Shown here: piece by piece, positions 28,884 through 37,412 of the stretch
How the letters are laid out: every line of letters starts with the position of its first letter
Numbering within the stretch: position 1 is the stretch's first letter
Translations under genes and position numbers: made by a program
Notes under the pieces: generated by a model
Told to the model about the DNA's origin: nothing
Database searches by the model: none
Seen by the model: only the letters and a program-made list of their open reading frames with translations
From: a virus
Virus record (IMG/VR): IMGVR_UViG_3300022939_000007
Span: 1 to 64,000 of that record
Reading direction: 5' to 3' (one strand)
DNA length: 64,000 nt

Positions 28884-29019
28884 TAACTTGGATCGAGACT
28901 ATAAAAAACTCAGCAAGGGCAGAAAAGAATATGTCAAAAAAATGGCATCAAAACAAAAACAAACTATTTCTAATTACTTGAATTCTAAATATGGAGAAAT
29001 TGAAAATGAAATTGAGTGA
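28855..29019 (+). CDS. Small basic/acidic helical protein (54 aa)
   Basis: A short ORF starting ATG-ATG, overlapping the DUF3310-like gene by 29 bases and the clamp gene by 14. The product is Lys-rich, with a helical stretch (D-N-L-D-R-D-Y-K-K-L-S-K-G-R-K) and an acidic end. It fills the space between its neighbours and lies downstream of a candidate promoter. I do not recognise the family. Confidence 0.4.
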   Translation: MMSINLKHSDNLDRDYKKLSKGRKEYVKKMASKQKQTISNYLNSKYGEIENEIE

Positions 29020-29704
29020 GCAAACGCAAAATATATTGAAGAATTATTCGACTATTAATCAGTCAATTTACTTGAAAAAAGGAAGTCGATTATCCACTAT
29101 TTCTGTTATGAGAAACATTTTATCAGCAACTGATGTAAGTGAAGAATTTCCAGTAGATTTTTGCATTTATGATTTGGGAAAATTTCTAAATCTTTTGAAG
29201 ATTTATCCAGAACTAGATTTTCATGATAAGTTTGTCATGATGAGCAATGGAGCAAAGACATATAAATTTATGGCTGCCGAACCATCTATTATTGTCTATG
29301 TTGAGAATACCTTTGAATTAGAAGGAAGCGACAACAATCCAGAAGGATCGAAACCTTCGCCGGATTGGGATATTAATGTAAAGCTTCCAAATTCTACACT
29401 ACATACTATCAATCAAGTGGCATCCATTTCTGGACTTCCTGATTATTCATTGTCAACAAAAGACGATGGAGTTGTTTATTTTTGTGCATTGGATAAAAAA
29501 GATGATACATCCAATGTTGCTGAAGAACCAGTTGGTGAATCAAATGCAACATTTAATATGTACTTCCGTTCAGAAAACCTAAAGCTAATCGAAGGTGATT
29601 ATGATGTAGGGATTTCTAAAAATAAAATCTCAACTTTCCGACACCAGAAATTGCCAATTCAATATTGGATTACACTTGAACAAGATTCGACTTATGGGGA
29701 GTAA
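29006..29704 (+). CDS. 45: Sliding clamp gp45
   Basis: A 232-residue trimeric processivity clamp. The N-terminus M-K-L-S-E-Q-T-Q-N-I-L-K-N-Y-S-T-I-N parallels T4 gp45, which fixes the start at 29006 rather than at the in-frame ATG at 28991. It tethers gp43 to DNA and also activates late transcription with gp55. It is followed by the clamp loader genes and regA in the standard order gp45-gp44-gp62-regA. Confidence 0.93.
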   Translation: MKLSEQTQNILKNYSTINQSIYLKKGSRLSTISVMRNILSATDVSEEFPVDFCIYDLGKFLNLLKIYPELDFHDKFVMMSNGAKTYKFMAAEPSIIVYVENTFELEGSDNNPEGSKPSPDWDINVKLPNSTLHTINQVASISGLPDYSLSTKDDGVVYFCALDKKDDTSNVAEEPVGESNATFNMYFRSENLKLIEGDYDVGISKNKISTFRHQKLPIQYWITLEQDSTYGE

Positions 29705-29706
29705 GT

Positions 29707-30657
29707 ATGGACAATTTTTTATGGGTAGAAAAATATCGTCCATCCGATATCGATAATTGTATTCTAACTGATGAACTAAAATCAACATTCAAAGAGTTTG
29801 TTGATACAGGAAGTTTACCCAATCTCCTATTGTCTGGCGGGCCAGGTGTTGGTAAAACAACTCTGGCTCGTGCCTTGTGCAATGAGATGAAAATGGACTA
29901 TATCTTAATCAACGGTTCCGAAGATAGTGGTATTGATGTTCTAAGAAATAAGATTCGAAACTATGCATCAACTGTAAGTTTTGATACTGGAAATAGTAAA
30001 GAATTTGGAAAGGTTATCATTTTAGACGAAGCGGATTATCTAAATCCACAATCAACTCAGCCCGCTCTGCGTGGATTCATTGAAGAGTTTTCTGGTAATT
30101 GTAGATTTATTCTTACATGCAATTTCAAGAATCGTATCATTGAACCACTGCATAGTAGATGTTCTCTTGTAGAATTTAAAATCAAAAAATCCGACAAACC
30201 AAAATTGGCAGGAACTTTTTTCAATAGAGTAAAAACTATTCTTGATAAAGAAAATATTTCTTATAAAGAAAAGGTGGTTGTGGAACTTGTAATGAAACAT
30301 TTTCCAGATTGGAGAAGAGTCTTAAATGAACTCCAGAGATATTCTGTTGGTGGTGAAATAGATGAAGGCCTTCTAACTGATGTGGGAGAGGTAAATATAA
30401 ACAAACTCACATCGGCGATGAAGGATAAGAATTTCACAGAGATTAGAGGATGGACAACTCAGAACTTGGATAATGATCCAAATACTTTATATAGAAAAAT
30501 CTATGATGGACTGTATGAACACGCAGAACCATCTTCAATTCCTCAAGCAGTTGTGACTATTGCAGACTATTCATACAAGTCTGCATTTGTTGCCGATCAA
30601 GAAATAAATCTTGTGGCGTGTTTGACAGAGTTGATGATGGAGTGTGATTGGAAATGA
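29707..30657 (+). CDS. 44: Clamp loader large subunit gp44
   Basis: A 316-residue AAA+ protein: an N-terminal W-V-E-K-Y-R-P segment, Walker A G-G-P-G-V-G-K-T-T (about residue 45), Walker B I-I-L-D-E-A-D and an S-R-C sensor motif (L-H-S-R-C-S-L). Four gp44 subunits and one gp62 load the gp45 clamp onto primed DNA. Two bases separate it from gp45. Confidence 0.95.
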   Translation: MDNFLWVEKYRPSDIDNCILTDELKSTFKEFVDTGSLPNLLLSGGPGVGKTTLARALCNEMKMDYILINGSEDSGIDVLRNKIRNYASTVSFDTGNSKEFGKVIILDEADYLNPQSTQPALRGFIEEFSGNCRFILTCNFKNRIIEPLHSRCSLVEFKIKKSDKPKLAGTFFNRVKTILDKENISYKEKVVVELVMKHFPDWRRVLNELQRYSVGGEIDEGLLTDVGEVNINKLTSAMKDKNFTEIRGWTTQNLDNDPNTLYRKIYDGLYEHAEPSSIPQAVVTIADYSYKSAFVADQEINLVACLTELMMECDWK

Positions 30658-31263: not shown

Positions 31264-31653
31264 ATGTCGATTTTAGAATCACTAGTAGAAGTCACTCTTA
31301 GCGATCAAGAGGACTTCTTAAAAATAAGAGAAACACTCACTAGAATTGGTGTTGCATCTAAAAAAGATAAAAAACTTTATCAATCTTGTCACATTCTTCA
31401 CAAACAGGGTAAATACTACATTGTTCATTTCAAAGAGCTATTTAAGCTTGATGGAAAATCATCTGATTTTTCAGAAAATGATAGAGCAAGAAGAAATACA
31501 ATCGTTAACCTTTTAAAAGAATGGGGATTGATTAATATTATCAAAGAAGATGAACATGTTGATGCACCAATTTCACAGATAAAAATTCTCTCTCATAAAG
31601 AAAAAGATGATTGGGAATTAGTACCTAAATATAATATTGGAAGAAAGAAATAA
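31264..31653 (+). CDS. regA: Translational repressor RegA
   Basis: A 129-residue RNA-binding repressor very close in pattern to T4 RegA: L-x-D-Q-E-D-F-L-K-I-R-E-T-L-T-R-I-G-(V)-A, then Y-Q-S-C-H-I-L-H-K-Q-G-K-Y-Y-I-V-H-F-K, and the end W-E-L-V-P-K-Y-N-I-G. In T4 it blocks ribosome binding on many early mRNAs, including those of the clamp loader and itself. Confidence 0.95.
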   Translation: MSILESLVEVTLSDQEDFLKIRETLTRIGVASKKDKKLYQSCHILHKQGKYYIVHFKELFKLDGKSSDFSENDRARRNTIVNLLKEWGLINIIKEDEHVDAPISQIKILSHKEKDDWELVPKYNIGRKK

Positions 31654-32027: not shown

Positions 32028-32036
32028 TTATATATA
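32007..32036 (+). promoter_or_regulatory. Possible promoter of the hsp20 leader
   Basis: TTGAGA, 18-base spacer, TATATA at the end of the MazG-like gene; the sequence continues TATATAGTATAGG. The match is moderate. Confidence 0.4.
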
Positions 32037-32046
32037 GTATAGGATC

Positions 32047-32125
32047 GTGGATTCCTTCACGCTTTGCGGTAAAATCCACTTGGTGCTCATTAGAGGCCAA
32101 TTTCAAAACCTTGCTTAATAGGAGG
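32047..32125 (+). promoter_or_regulatory. ROSE-like RNA thermometer leader of hsp20
   Basis: The 105-base leader folds into successive stems: GTGGATT/AATCCAC (32047-32053 with 32073-32079), TTGG-CTC/GAG-CCAA (32080-32100) and a final hairpin CCTTGCT, loop TAAT, AGGAGG (32109-32125). In the last one the ribosome-binding site AGGAGG pairs with CCTTGCT, leaving the G of TTGCT bulged. This is the U(U/C)GCU:AGGA arrangement that defines ROSE thermometers in front of small heat-shock genes in alphaproteobacteria. Confidence 0.65.
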
Positions 32126-32132
32126 AAAAAAC

Positions 32133-32591
32133 ATGGTTACGAAATTTAAAACTTTAGACCCTTTTATGCGTTATAGTGTCGGGTTCGATAGATTGTTTAA
32201 TGAACTTGAGAATTTGTCTCAAACAACAACGCAAAACTATCCCCCATACAATGTAGTAAAAGTAAACGATTCTGATTATCGTATTGAAATTGCTGTATCG
32301 GGATTTTCTGAAGATGAACTTGATGTTGAAGTTAAAGAAGATACTCTTACAGTAACAGGTACAGTAACAGAACGCGAAGAATCTAACTACTTGCATAAGG
32401 GAATTTCGTCTAGAAATTTTGCTAGAACATTCACTCTCAATCCAGACATTGTTGTGAATGATGCGAAACTTTCTAATGGAATGCTTGTAATCGAATTGGA
32501 ACATGTAATTCCAGAAGAAAAACAGCCTAGAAAGATTGAGATTAATCGATCAATTGGCAAAAAGGGAAAGAAAACTCTTTTAGTTGAATAA
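32133..32591 (+). CDS. Small heat-shock protein Hsp20
   Basis: A 152-residue alpha-crystallin-domain chaperone: N-terminal F-D-R-L-F-N-E-L, then P-P-Y-N-V-V-K, Y-R-I-E-I-A-V-S-G-F, E-V-K-E-D-T-L-T-V-T-G and R-N-F-A-R-T-F-T-L. It binds unfolding proteins to prevent aggregation. Hsp20 genes are part of the shared gene set of marine T4-like phages. Here the mRNA leader looks temperature-responsive. A stem-loop follows the gene. Confidence 0.93.
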   Translation: MVTKFKTLDPFMRYSVGFDRLFNELENLSQTTTQNYPPYNVVKVNDSDYRIEIAVSGFSEDELDVEVKEDTLTVTGTVTEREESNYLHKGISSRNFARTFTLNPDIVVNDAKLSNGMLVIELEHVIPEEKQPRKIEINRSIGKKGKKTLLVE

Positions 32592-33848: not shown

Positions 33849-36380
33849 ATGCGTTTTTATACTAATGTACAAAATATTGGAAACAAAATTCTTGTTAGAG
33901 AATATAACAATGGTGAACGAAAAAAATTAAGGTTAGATTATAAACCATCTTTATTTTTTGAAACAAAAGACAGAACATCAAAATATAAATCTCTTGATGG
34001 AAAAAATCTAAAAAAAGTAACATTTTCGGCCATTAACGAAGCAAGAAGTAAGATGCGAGAAGTCGAAGGACTGTCTCCTATTTACGGAATGACGCCTTTT
34101 ATCTATCCATTTATATCTGATACTTATAATGATATGGAATTTGATATTGATAAAATCAATATCGCAACACTTGATATTGAGGTTGAATGTGAACAGGGAT
34201 TTCCAGAACCAGCAGCTGCGGCTGAACGAGTGAATGCTATTACTTTAAAATATAATGGACTTTATACAGTTCTTGGTCTTGGAGATTGGGAACATAAAAC
34301 TCCAGAAGTCGAACATCTGAATATCAAATATTACAAATGTACAAGTGAAATGGAACTTCTACGTTCATTTCTGAATTTGTGGGAGTCTGCTGATATTGAT
34401 ATTGTAACTGGATGGAATGTAAACTCTTTCGATATATTATATCTTGTAAATAGAATTACTAAAATCTTGGGCGAAGAACAGATGAAACGTCTGTCACCTT
34501 GGCGTTCTGTAAACAAAGTTCAAAAAAATATTAGAGGACAACTTACAGAACATGTTCAGCTACTTGGATTAAACATTATTGATTATCTTGACTTGTATAG
34601 AAAATTTACATATGTCACCAGAGAATCTTATCGATTAGACCATATTGCATTTGTTGAACTTGGCCAAAGAAAACTTGACCACTCTGAATTTTCATCGATG
34701 CATCTATTTTATAAGATGGACTATCAGAAATATATAGATTATAACATCATTGATGTTGAACTTGTCGATAGACTTGAAGATAAACTAAAATTGTTGGAAC
34801 TTCTCATTACTATTGCATATCAGGCAAAGGTTAATTATGATGAAGTTTTTTCTCCAATCAAAACATGGGACTCGATTGCGTTTAATCTTCTAAGACGAAA
34901 CAAGATAGTAATTCCACCAAAAACAATAAGTCAAAAGACTGAGGCCTATGCCGGTGCATATGTAAAAGATCCAATTGTTGGAATGCATGATTGGGTCATG
35001 TCTTTTGATTTGAATAGTTTGTATCCACATCTTATCATGCAATATAATATCTCACCAGAAACATTAGTTGAAACAGATCGTGTTGATACAAATGTAAATA
35101 CTTTGTTAGAGAAAGGAACGGACACAGAAGCATGTCAACAATATGGATATTCTCTCACACCAAATGGCGTTCTTTATGATAATTCAAAAAAAGGATTTCT
35201 TCCAAAATTGATGCAAGGTATGTATGATGACCGTGTACAATATAAGAAAGAAATGTTAAAATGTAAACAGAGAAAGATTGACGGCGACGGCGATCCAGTG
35301 GAATTAGATAAGAAAATCGCCGCACTAAACAACAAACAAATGGCAGCAAAAATTCTTCTCAATTCAGCTTATGGTGCGTTAGGAAATCAATATTTTAGAT
35401 ATTTTGATATTAGACAGGCTGAGTCGATTACTTTATCTGGTCAACTAAGTATTCGTTGGATTGAGAAAAAAGTAAACGAATACATGAACAAGGTATTAGG
35501 AAATGAAGAACAGAAAGAATATGTCATTGCAAGCGATACAGATTCGATATATGTTGTTTTTGGTGACTTGGTACAAAGAGTGTTTGGAAAAGGAGATTCG
35601 ATATCGGAGAGTGATGGTGGTATACAAACCGAGCGAGTGGTATCATTTCTTGATAGAGTTGCTCAGGAGAAATTGGAACCTTTTATTGATAAGGCTTATA
35701 AAGAACTTGCTGAATATATGAATGCATATGACCAAAAGATGGTAATGGCTAGAGAGGTGATTGCATCAAAGGGTTTGTGGACTGCGAAGAAGAGATATAT
35801 CTTAAATGTTCATGATAACGAAGGAGTCAGATATAAAACCCCAGAACTAAAAATTATGGGTATTGAGGCTGTTCGTTCTTCAACTCCGGCTGCGTGTAGA
35901 GATAAACTAAGAGAATCCTTTAAAGTTATAATGAAGGGTGATAATGATGAGTTGATTGAGTTTATTGATAAATTTAGAGAAGAATTTAAAACAATGGATG
36001 TACCAGACATTTCTTTTCCAAGAAGTGTTAATGGCCTAAAGAAATACTTTGATTCGAAAGATTTATATACAAAAGGCACACCAATTCATGTGAAAGGTGT
36101 GATTCATTATAATAATTTGGTGCAAAAACACAAACTTGGAATGTCTTATCCTTTAATTAAGGAAGGCGAAAAGATTAAGTTTGTATATTTGAAAGAGCCA
36201 AATCCGATAGGAAACAATACAATTGCAATTCAAGATTCTTTACCAGAAGAATTTGACTTGCATCGATATATTGACTACAACAAACAATTTGAAAAGGCGT
36301 TTCTTGACCCTATTCAAACTATCACAGACACAATTGGTTGGAAAACTGAAAAAATATTTACAATTGATGACTTTTTTTAA
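33849..36380 (+). CDS. 43: DNA polymerase gp43 (family B)
   Basis: An 843-residue family B polymerase with 3'-5' exonuclease. Exo motifs: T-L-D-I-E-V-E (about residue 108) and N-V-N-S-F-D-I-L-Y. Polymerase motifs: motif A S-F-D-L-N-S-L-Y-P-H-L-I, motif B K-I-L-L-N-S-A-Y-G-A-L-G-N and motif C A-S-D-T-D-S-I-Y. The C-terminus (K-I-F-T-I-D-D-F-F) is a likely clamp-binding tail. Promoter, recombinase and helicase genes flank it. Confidence 0.97.
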   Translation: MRFYTNVQNIGNKILVREYNNGERKKLRLDYKPSLFFETKDRTSKYKSLDGKNLKKVTFSAINEARSKMREVEGLSPIYGMTPFIYPFISDTYNDMEFDIDKINIATLDIEVECEQGFPEPAAAAERVNAITLKYNGLYTVLGLGDWEHKTPEVEHLNIKYYKCTSEMELLRSFLNLWESADIDIVTGWNVNSFDILYLVNRITKILGEEQMKRLSPWRSVNKVQKNIRGQLTEHVQLLGLNIIDYLDLYRKFTYVTRESYRLDHIAFVELGQRKLDHSEFSSMHLFYKMDYQKYIDYNIIDVELVDRLEDKLKLLELLITIAYQAKVNYDEVFSPIKTWDSIAFNLLRRNKIVIPPKTISQKTEAYAGAYVKDPIVGMHDWVMSFDLNSLYPHLIMQYNISPETLVETDRVDTNVNTLLEKGTDTEACQQYGYSLTPNGVLYDNSKKGFLPKLMQGMYDDRVQYKKEMLKCKQRKIDGDGDPVELDKKIAALNNKQMAAKILLNSAYGALGNQYFRYFDIRQAESITLSGQLSIRWIEKKVNEYMNKVLGNEEQKEYVIASDTDSIYVVFGDLVQRVFGKGDSISESDGGIQTERVVSFLDRVAQEKLEPFIDKAYKELAEYMNAYDQKMVMAREVIASKGLWTAKKRYILNVHDNEGVRYKTPELKIMGIEAVRSSTPAACRDKLRESFKVIMKGDNDELIEFIDKFREEFKTMDVPDISFPRSVNGLKKYFDSKDLYTKGTPIHVKGVIHYNNLVQKHKLGMSYPLIKEGEKIKFVYLKEPNPIGNNTIAIQDSLPEEFDLHRYIDYNKQFEKAFLDPIQTITDTIGWKTEKIFTIDDFF

Positions 36381-36392
36381 TAGGAGAATAAT

Positions 36393-37412
36393 ATGACATC
36401 TGGACTAATGAGTAAGTTAAGAAAGAATACGTCTTTCAAAGATGGAAGAGTTAATACTTTATCAGAATCGCCGTTTTTACATGAAAAGGATAATATTCCT
36501 ACAAATATTCCAGCAATGAATGTTGCATTTTCTGGATCACTGGAAAAAGGATTTACTTCTGGTTTGACAATGATTGCAGGTCCAAGTAAACACTTTAAAA
36601 CGGCATTTGGTTTGATTATGATGAAATCGTATCTAGACAAATATCCAGATGCGGTTGCTCTTTTTTATGACAGTGAATTTGGAACTCCACAGAACTATTT
36701 TGATGTATTTGAAATTGATACCACAAGAGTAGTTCACATTCCAGTTACTGATTTGGAAGAATTGAAATTTGATATGGTTTCTCAGCTAAAAGAAATAGAA
36801 ACAGAAGATAAACTTTTTATCATGGTTGATTCTGTAGGAAACCTTGCATCGAAAAAAGAAGTAGAAGATGCGGAGAATCAAAAGTCTGCCGCTGATATGA
36901 CAAGAGCAAAACAATTCAAATCTTTGTTTAGAATGGTAACACCACATCTAACAATGAAAGATATTCCAATGGTTGCAATTAACCACACATATGACTCACA
37001 GGGGTTATATCCAACTAAGGTTGTATCTGGTGGCACTGGAATGTATTATAGTGCTGATACTATTTGGATTATTGGTAGACAACAAGACAAGGTTGGTACA
37101 GAAATTCAAGGATATCATTTCGTAATCAATGTAGAGAAATCTAGATTTGTAAAAGAAAAATCTAAAATTCCAATTTCAGTTTCATGGGAAAATGGTATAG
37201 ATAAAACTTCAGGTCTTCTTGACATGGCGGTAGATTATGGTGTAATATCCAAATCAGGTGGATGGTATCAGATGGTTGATCCAGAAACTGGAGAAGTAGA
37301 CGATAAAAAGTTTCGTGAAAAAGAAACACATAATATGGAATTTTGGGAAACTTTATTACAAGATTCTAAATTTGATGGATTTTTGAAAAAGAAATATAGA
37401 GTAGGTAACTAA
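36393..37412 (+). CDS. uvsX: RecA-like recombinase UvsX
   Basis: A 339-residue strand-exchange ATPase. Walker A is the T4-type G-P-S-K-H-F-K-T (about residue 64) and Walker B lies in F-I-M-V-D-S-V-G-N-L; V-A-I-N-H-T-Y and V-S-G-G-T-G-M follow. UvsX with UvsY performs recombination-dependent replication and repair. TAGGAG precedes the ATG. It overlaps the next gene by one base. Confidence 0.95.
   Translation: MTSGLMSKLRKNTSFKDGRVNTLSESPFLHEKDNIPTNIPAMNVAFSGSLEKGFTSGLTMIAGPSKHFKTAFGLIMMKSYLDKYPDAVALFYDSEFGTPQNYFDVFEIDTTRVVHIPVTDLEELKFDMVSQLKEIETEDKLFIMVDSVGNLASKKEVEDAENQKSAADMTRAKQFKSLFRMVTPHLTMKDIPMVAINHTYDSQGLYPTKVVSGGTGMYYSADTIWIIGRQQDKVGTEIQGYHFVINVEKSRFVKEKSKIPISVSWENGIDKTSGLLDMAVDYGVISKSGGWYQMVDPETGEVDDKKFREKETHNMEFWETLLQDSKFDGFLKKKYRVGN

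Follow-up and report, generated by a model that had tools for sequence, protein, structure and literature searches.

A ROSE-like leader with three hairpins precedes the hsp20 gene of a phage with T4-like replication genes

The hsp20 gene of the virus considered here follows a leader in which the ribosome-binding site can be paired, which raises the question whether this leader is an RNA thermometer of the ROSE type, and whether similar leaders occur in other phages. The analyzed DNA (the window) is a stretch of 64,000 bases, part of a virus record of 99,763 bases with T4-like replication genes (Table 1). The nearest relatives of its DNA polymerase are cyanophage polymerases (about 52% identity), and the hsp20 locus is found nearly identical in five IMG/VR contigs. 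T4-like cyanophages have hsp20 among their core genes, and its role, in capsid scaffolding or in host protection, is debated; to our knowledge, very few RNA thermometers are known in phages.

Table 1. Features of the hsp20 leader and its gene neighbourhood (window coordinates).
Feature	Position	Strand	Remarks
Clamp and clamp loader	around 28991–30657		from reading of translations
RegA-like ORF	31264–31653		two genes upstream of hsp20; from reading of translation
MazG-like PRA-PH pyrophosphohydrolase	at 31653		PF01503
T4 late-promoter-like box TATATATA (cf. TATAAATA)	32029..32036	+	just 5' of the leader; putative promoter function
Hairpin I	32047..32079	+	7-bp outer stem, 3-bp inner stem, internal loop TCC / AAA
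Hairpin I, outer stem GTGGATT/AATCCAC	32047–32053 with 32073–32079		
Hairpin I, inner stem CGC/GCG	32060–32062 with 32066–32068		
Hairpin II	32080..32100	+	79% of cells paired, 2 pairs changed on both sides
Anti-SD strand CCUUGCU	32109..32115	+	contains the ROSE motif U(U/C)GCU; G32113 bulged
Loop TAAT of the SD hairpin	32116–32119		
Shine–Dalgarno AGGAGG	32120..32125	+	forms the 3' side of the ROSE hairpin
hsp20, small heat-shock protein, 152 aa	32133..32591	+	PF00011 HSP20, E 7e-20
DNA polymerase	at 33849		
UvsX-like recombinase	at 36393		from reading of translation

The last hairpin before the ATG at 32133, CCUU(G)CU-UAAU-AGGAGG (32109–32125), covers the entire Shine–Dalgarno (SD) sequence with six pairs, in the order C-G, C-G, U-A, U-G, then the single bulged G, C-G, and U-A. 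In the ROSE class, the 3' hairpin typically sets U(U/C)GCU opposite the SD in an imperfect pairing that leaves one G bulged; here, UUGCU (32111–32115) faces AGGA, and the leader belongs to a small heat-shock gene (PF00011), as in that class. The preliminary description had proposed this hairpin, with the whole ribosome site paired and one G bulged, and two further stems before it; its letters and pairing proved correct, and both stems (hairpins I and II) were found. The motif CTTGCT-(2–12)-AGGAG-(4–12)-ATG occurs once in the window, versus 0.01 occurrences expected by chance. The folding energy is ordinary (z-score –1.4 for the leader and 0.0 with flanks); hence, the hairpin would not be acceptable on energy alone, and the case rests on comparison.

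The leaders of 14 distinct relatives, with Hsp20 about 66–85% identical to that of the window, were aligned with the window leader by sequence only, and the hairpins as proposed in the preliminary description were counted on these 15 leaders. Standard pairs occupy 91% of the cells, versus 33–51% if the partner strand is slid by 1–3 columns, and 10 of the 24 pairs in the three hairpins are changed on both sides, so that three structure-conserved hairpins are seen, the ROSE class having two to four. Hairpin I shows such changes in 6/7 pairs of the outer stem and in 2/3 pairs of the inner stem, all cells being paired; e.g., one pair of stem I is G-C, U-A, or C-G, and another is A-U or G-C (100% of cells paired). 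RNAalifold recovers stem I from this alignment unaided. The compensatory changes in related phage leaders on which the preliminary description had made its proposal depend are thus present, while the anti-SD strand CCTTGCT is unchanged in 15/15 leaders.

The internal loop of hairpin I (32054–32075) keeps TCC and AAA constant in all 15 leaders, with covarying stems around it, and TTCC of this loop is able to pair with GGAA of the SD region. An alternative pairing of TTCCTTC in hairpin I with GGAGGAA, complete in the window (7/7 pairs) and reduced to 5–6/7 in many relatives, is not preferred, since the pairs are lost there without compensation.

To a wider range of phages we applied two approaches, one starting from the protein and the other from DNA only. 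Among 74 unique leaders located through the Hsp20 protein, 60 contain T(T/C)GCT followed by correctly placed AGGA; of the other 14, 12 have TTGC(T/A) with TGGAGG, another shows the motif at a short spacing, and the last (L076) reads TTACT. Ten of the 12 TGGAGG-type leaders, all from one clade, have A-U in place of U-A beside the bulge. The pattern CCTTGCA..TGGAG yields mostly noise in viral contigs (2/80 matches before hsp20) and is too loose, so the evidence for this U-A to A-U change comes from the one protein-found clade. The element is present in the isolated phages Syn33, Syn30, S-RSM4, S-SSM7, and S-CAM3 (UCGCU form), and also in pelagiphage HTVC115P (55 kb), methylophage Melnitz, and Sinorhizobium phage Phosso. 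Most phage leaders resemble the two-hairpin elements of Pseudomonas, and their hairpin I is often of the GCC..GGG kind; leaders of the window clade contain one hairpin more. As judged from these sequences, a ROSE-type fold recurs before hsp20 in most phages examined, and the motif is present in nearly all the phage hsp20 leaders covered. RNAalifold applied to 114 diverse leaders (MAFFT alignment) left hairpin I unaligned and recovered the SD hairpin alone.

Several observations concern the collected records themselves. Four hsp20-matching "phage" records, OQ572409.1 (L291), OR851202.1, AGRM01000003.1, and AFYI01000003.1, resemble bacterial chromosome, and a glutamine riboswitch above threshold is found near a phage hsp20 gene (L033, 56–104, minus strand).

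The DNA scans of IMG/VR made no use of the protein and required CCTTGCTTAA, TCTTGCTTAA, or ACTTGCTTAA, followed by AGGAG and ATG, the base after AGGAG being unconstrained. In these three scans, respectively, hsp20 lies downstream in 60/73, 65/79, and 65/75 unique matches, versus 0/80 for a scrambled version with identical base composition; the sequences are related and not independent, hence, no exact probability can be attached to these counts, and neither the shuffle counts nor the Fisher P can be read as true probabilities. The matches elsewhere mostly precede dnaK, or the motif there apparently runs into the end of a preceding coding frame, as in L093 and L116. At the outer pair of the SD hairpin, C as the first base is accompanied by G at the free base in 60/60 cases; T is accompanied by A in 62/65 and by G in 3/65; and with A as the first base, the A-U pair is formed in only 17/65. 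After dereplication, the outer pair is C-G in 31/31 C-initial leaders, and U-A in 42/43 or U-G in 1/43 T-initial leaders. Such switching between C-G and U-A in unrelated phages indicates compensatory change within the SD hairpin and is not accounted for by selection on the SD sequence only. The motif, specific for hsp20, covarying, and recurrent in phage leaders, is therefore a ROSE-like element; the proposal of such an element before phage hsp20 is strongly supported by the covariation in stem I, the switching of the outer pair, and the contrast between the motif and its scrambled version.

The search with Rfam ROSE models proposed in the preliminary description did not recognize the leader. 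At gathering and at permissive thresholds the models gave no ROSE match in the window, only snoRNA noise: RF00435 (ROSE), RF01832 (ROSE_2), and RF02523 (ROSE_3) did not reach their curated cut-offs, and no ROSE match was seen even at E 10 (351 bases searched). Relatives match RF02523 only below threshold: of 40 phage records, 21 match with E values of 1 or less, but even the best match, at 37.3 bits (E 1e-7 per record), falls short of the cut-off of 43, and the record of the near-identical relative of the window (L001) has none; in none of the 40 does any ROSE model reach its threshold. One record that bears the label Pseudomonas phage Y7 reaches 69 bits; we suspect it to be host DNA.

The closest likeness to experimentally proven elements can be described for the two-hairpin ROSE-like thermometers of Pseudomonas (Krajewski et al.; PMC3669281), whose hallmark is U(U/C)GCU blocking the SD in the 3' hairpin (PMC3669281). 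Like ROSE_3 of Pseudomonas ibpA, the window leader has a 3' hairpin with the SD imperfectly paired to U(U/C)GCU, a hairpin I upstream, and a small heat-shock gene downstream, and its two-hairpin phage relatives align to all 69 positions of the RF02523 model. Unlike ROSE_3, phage hsp20 leaders stay at or below 37.3 bits; the leaders of the window clade, undetected by the model, possess a third hairpin with its own conserved internal loop; and the gene is viral and stands behind a late-promoter-like box. With the elements of rhizobial hspA and E. coli ibpA (Rfam ROSE and ROSE_2) the leader shares the U(U/C)GCU strand facing the SD in the last hairpin, the small heat-shock gene, and, with three to four hairpins there, a comparable hairpin count; unlike them, it has no Rfam match. 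Taken together, the sequence comparisons indicate that the leader is a real ROSE-like element, a new viral variant with three hairpins, for which a temperature response would be expected.

Temperature-responsive leaders in phage genomes have been described for lambda cIII, SP-beta blyA (fourU), and a sigma-70 candidate (PMC11182007), blyA being, according to this 2024 paper, only the second phage thermometer known. None of the three is of the ROSE type on a small heat-shock gene, unlike the window leader. The cyanobacterial hsp17 thermometer (PMC4477652) consists of one hairpin containing a 1x3 internal loop; it likewise hides the ribosome site in the leader of a small heat-shock gene, but is not of the U(U/C)GCU type, which cyanophages carry. 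Literature searches in openly licensed papers found no published phage ROSE element, although a prior mention is possible.

The best overall explanation, and in our view a highly probable one, is that the leader acts as a ROSE-like cis-regulatory RNA gating hsp20, the structure being derived from sequence and the temperature response from analogy. As in experimentally studied ROSE elements, the SD hairpin would keep the ribosome off hsp20 mRNA in the cold and would open through local melting upon warming; Hsp20 would then be made when protein folding is endangered by heat or by the amount of phage protein in the cell. A T4-type late promoter probably initiates transcription just 5' of hairpin I, and a late gene would thereby be gated at the level of translation as well, by the RNA. 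In 54/74 unique phage hsp20 leaders, versus 2% of shuffles, a TATAWATA box lies no more than 110 nt before the start codon, and nearly always just 5' of the first hairpin; judging by sequence and position, it fits a T4-type late promoter with the transcript beginning at the hairpins.

Energy modelling, which does not treat the non-canonical pairs of ROSE elements, depends on how much sequence is included. For the leader alone, with these pairs left out, the predicted probability of a fully open SD grows about 120-fold between 15°C (5e-5) and 42°C (6e-3); the slope resembles that of a P. aeruginosa-type control, which goes from 7e-6 to 1.8e-3. If the initial 21 nt of coding sequence are included, again without non-canonical pairs, the window leader is predicted to be 14–20% open at all temperatures (probability 0.14–0.20, flat from 15 to 42°C), because other pairings compete; under the same model, the control rises 79-fold, and the leaders L246 and L277 rise 68-fold and 413-fold, respectively.

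The flat profile is what would be expected if the hairpin merely sequestered the SD without sensing temperature, so that Hsp20 would be kept low, be made late, or be translated with a delay; a proposed function of hsp20 in capsid maturation (PMC3037559), which fits a TATAAATA-type late promoter, points in the same direction. However, a simple sequestering helix does not need the exact U(U/C)GCU strand and the bulged G, both of which are kept, nor would it account for the preference of this strand for heat-shock genes (hsp20, dnaK), so we regard a plain hairpin as improbable. Least probable, to the point of being hardly credible, is an operator for a phage translational repressor such as RegA. 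A RegA-like ORF does lie nearby in the window, and regA directly precedes hsp20 in S-RSM4 and S-SSM7; however, the element also stands before hsp20 in bacteria, where phage RegA is absent, and in pelagiphage HTVC115P (55 kb), and its conserved part pairs with the SD instead of forming a single-stranded site at the AUG.

The leader might also be an autorepression site, bound by free Hsp20, which would block its own translation until titrated by proteins aggregating in infection, with temperature being only one input. The precedent is E. coli IbpA, which binds its own thermometer leader and represses it, for which R93 and an aromatic residue at position 34 are needed (PMC10474464). The position of R93 is occupied by Arg in 174 of 183 phage Hsp20 proteins (Lys in 9), and that of Y34 by Tyr or Phe in 183/183; the window protein has Arg and Tyr, respectively, i.e., both equivalents characteristic of a self-repressed small heat-shock protein of the IbpA type. 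The positions were assigned on what we take to be the E. coli IbpA sequence, whose numbering agrees with PMC10474464. On the other hand, R93 is common in proteobacterial small heat-shock proteins generally, so its conservation need not mean RNA binding, and the position of K98 is occupied by Thr in the window Hsp20, where RNA binding is putative. Possible, if on balance unlikely, as the explanation of the leader, autorepression is still a serious second mechanism given the conserved IbpA-type residues, and may act together with temperature.

The ROSE-like element is not restricted to phages. Cellular hsp20 loci of alpha-, beta-, and gammaproteobacteria have the same kind of leader in 68/79 cases (relaxed pattern). 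The hint at an alphaproteobacterial host, drawn from the leader in the preliminary description, is thereby lost: such leaders are found in all three classes and in cyanophages, and do not indicate one host group.

Nor is it restricted to hsp20: in viral contigs, 12 motif matches precede dnaK, and in four contigs dnaK and hsp20 are each preceded by the element (two ROSE motifs each; L426, L438, L444, L423), a ROSE-like motif before dnaK being seen also in L409, L424, L431, L436, and L569. A 98.5-kb viral contig (L294:1545 on the minus strand, L295, G013) has three ROSE_3-like leaders, preceding dnaK (PF00012), hsp20, and a small gene of 87 aa, phasin-like by eye and without a Pfam match. In another viral contig, a ROSE_3-like match (L293, G016:C1:28800-32200, positions 516–579) lies upstream of groES-groEL-hsp20, the next ATG opening only a very short frame. 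A second ROSE_3-like leader of one phage (L296, G021:C1:7711-7777) precedes an 89-aa gene near the clamp gene. It is doubtful, and suggested here as a speculation, that phages have a ROSE regulon comprising hsp20 in most of them and dnaK and perhaps groES-groEL in some large ones, which would gauge protein folding in the infected cell through binding of Hsp20 to its own leader together with temperature.

Since current Rfam models miss phage hsp20 leaders, an annotation gap is to be closed. A conserved ROSE-like gate would mean that, in widely differing phages and hosts, selection acts on when or under which condition hsp20 is translated, and with it a simple reporter suffices to test whether phage development depends on temperature.
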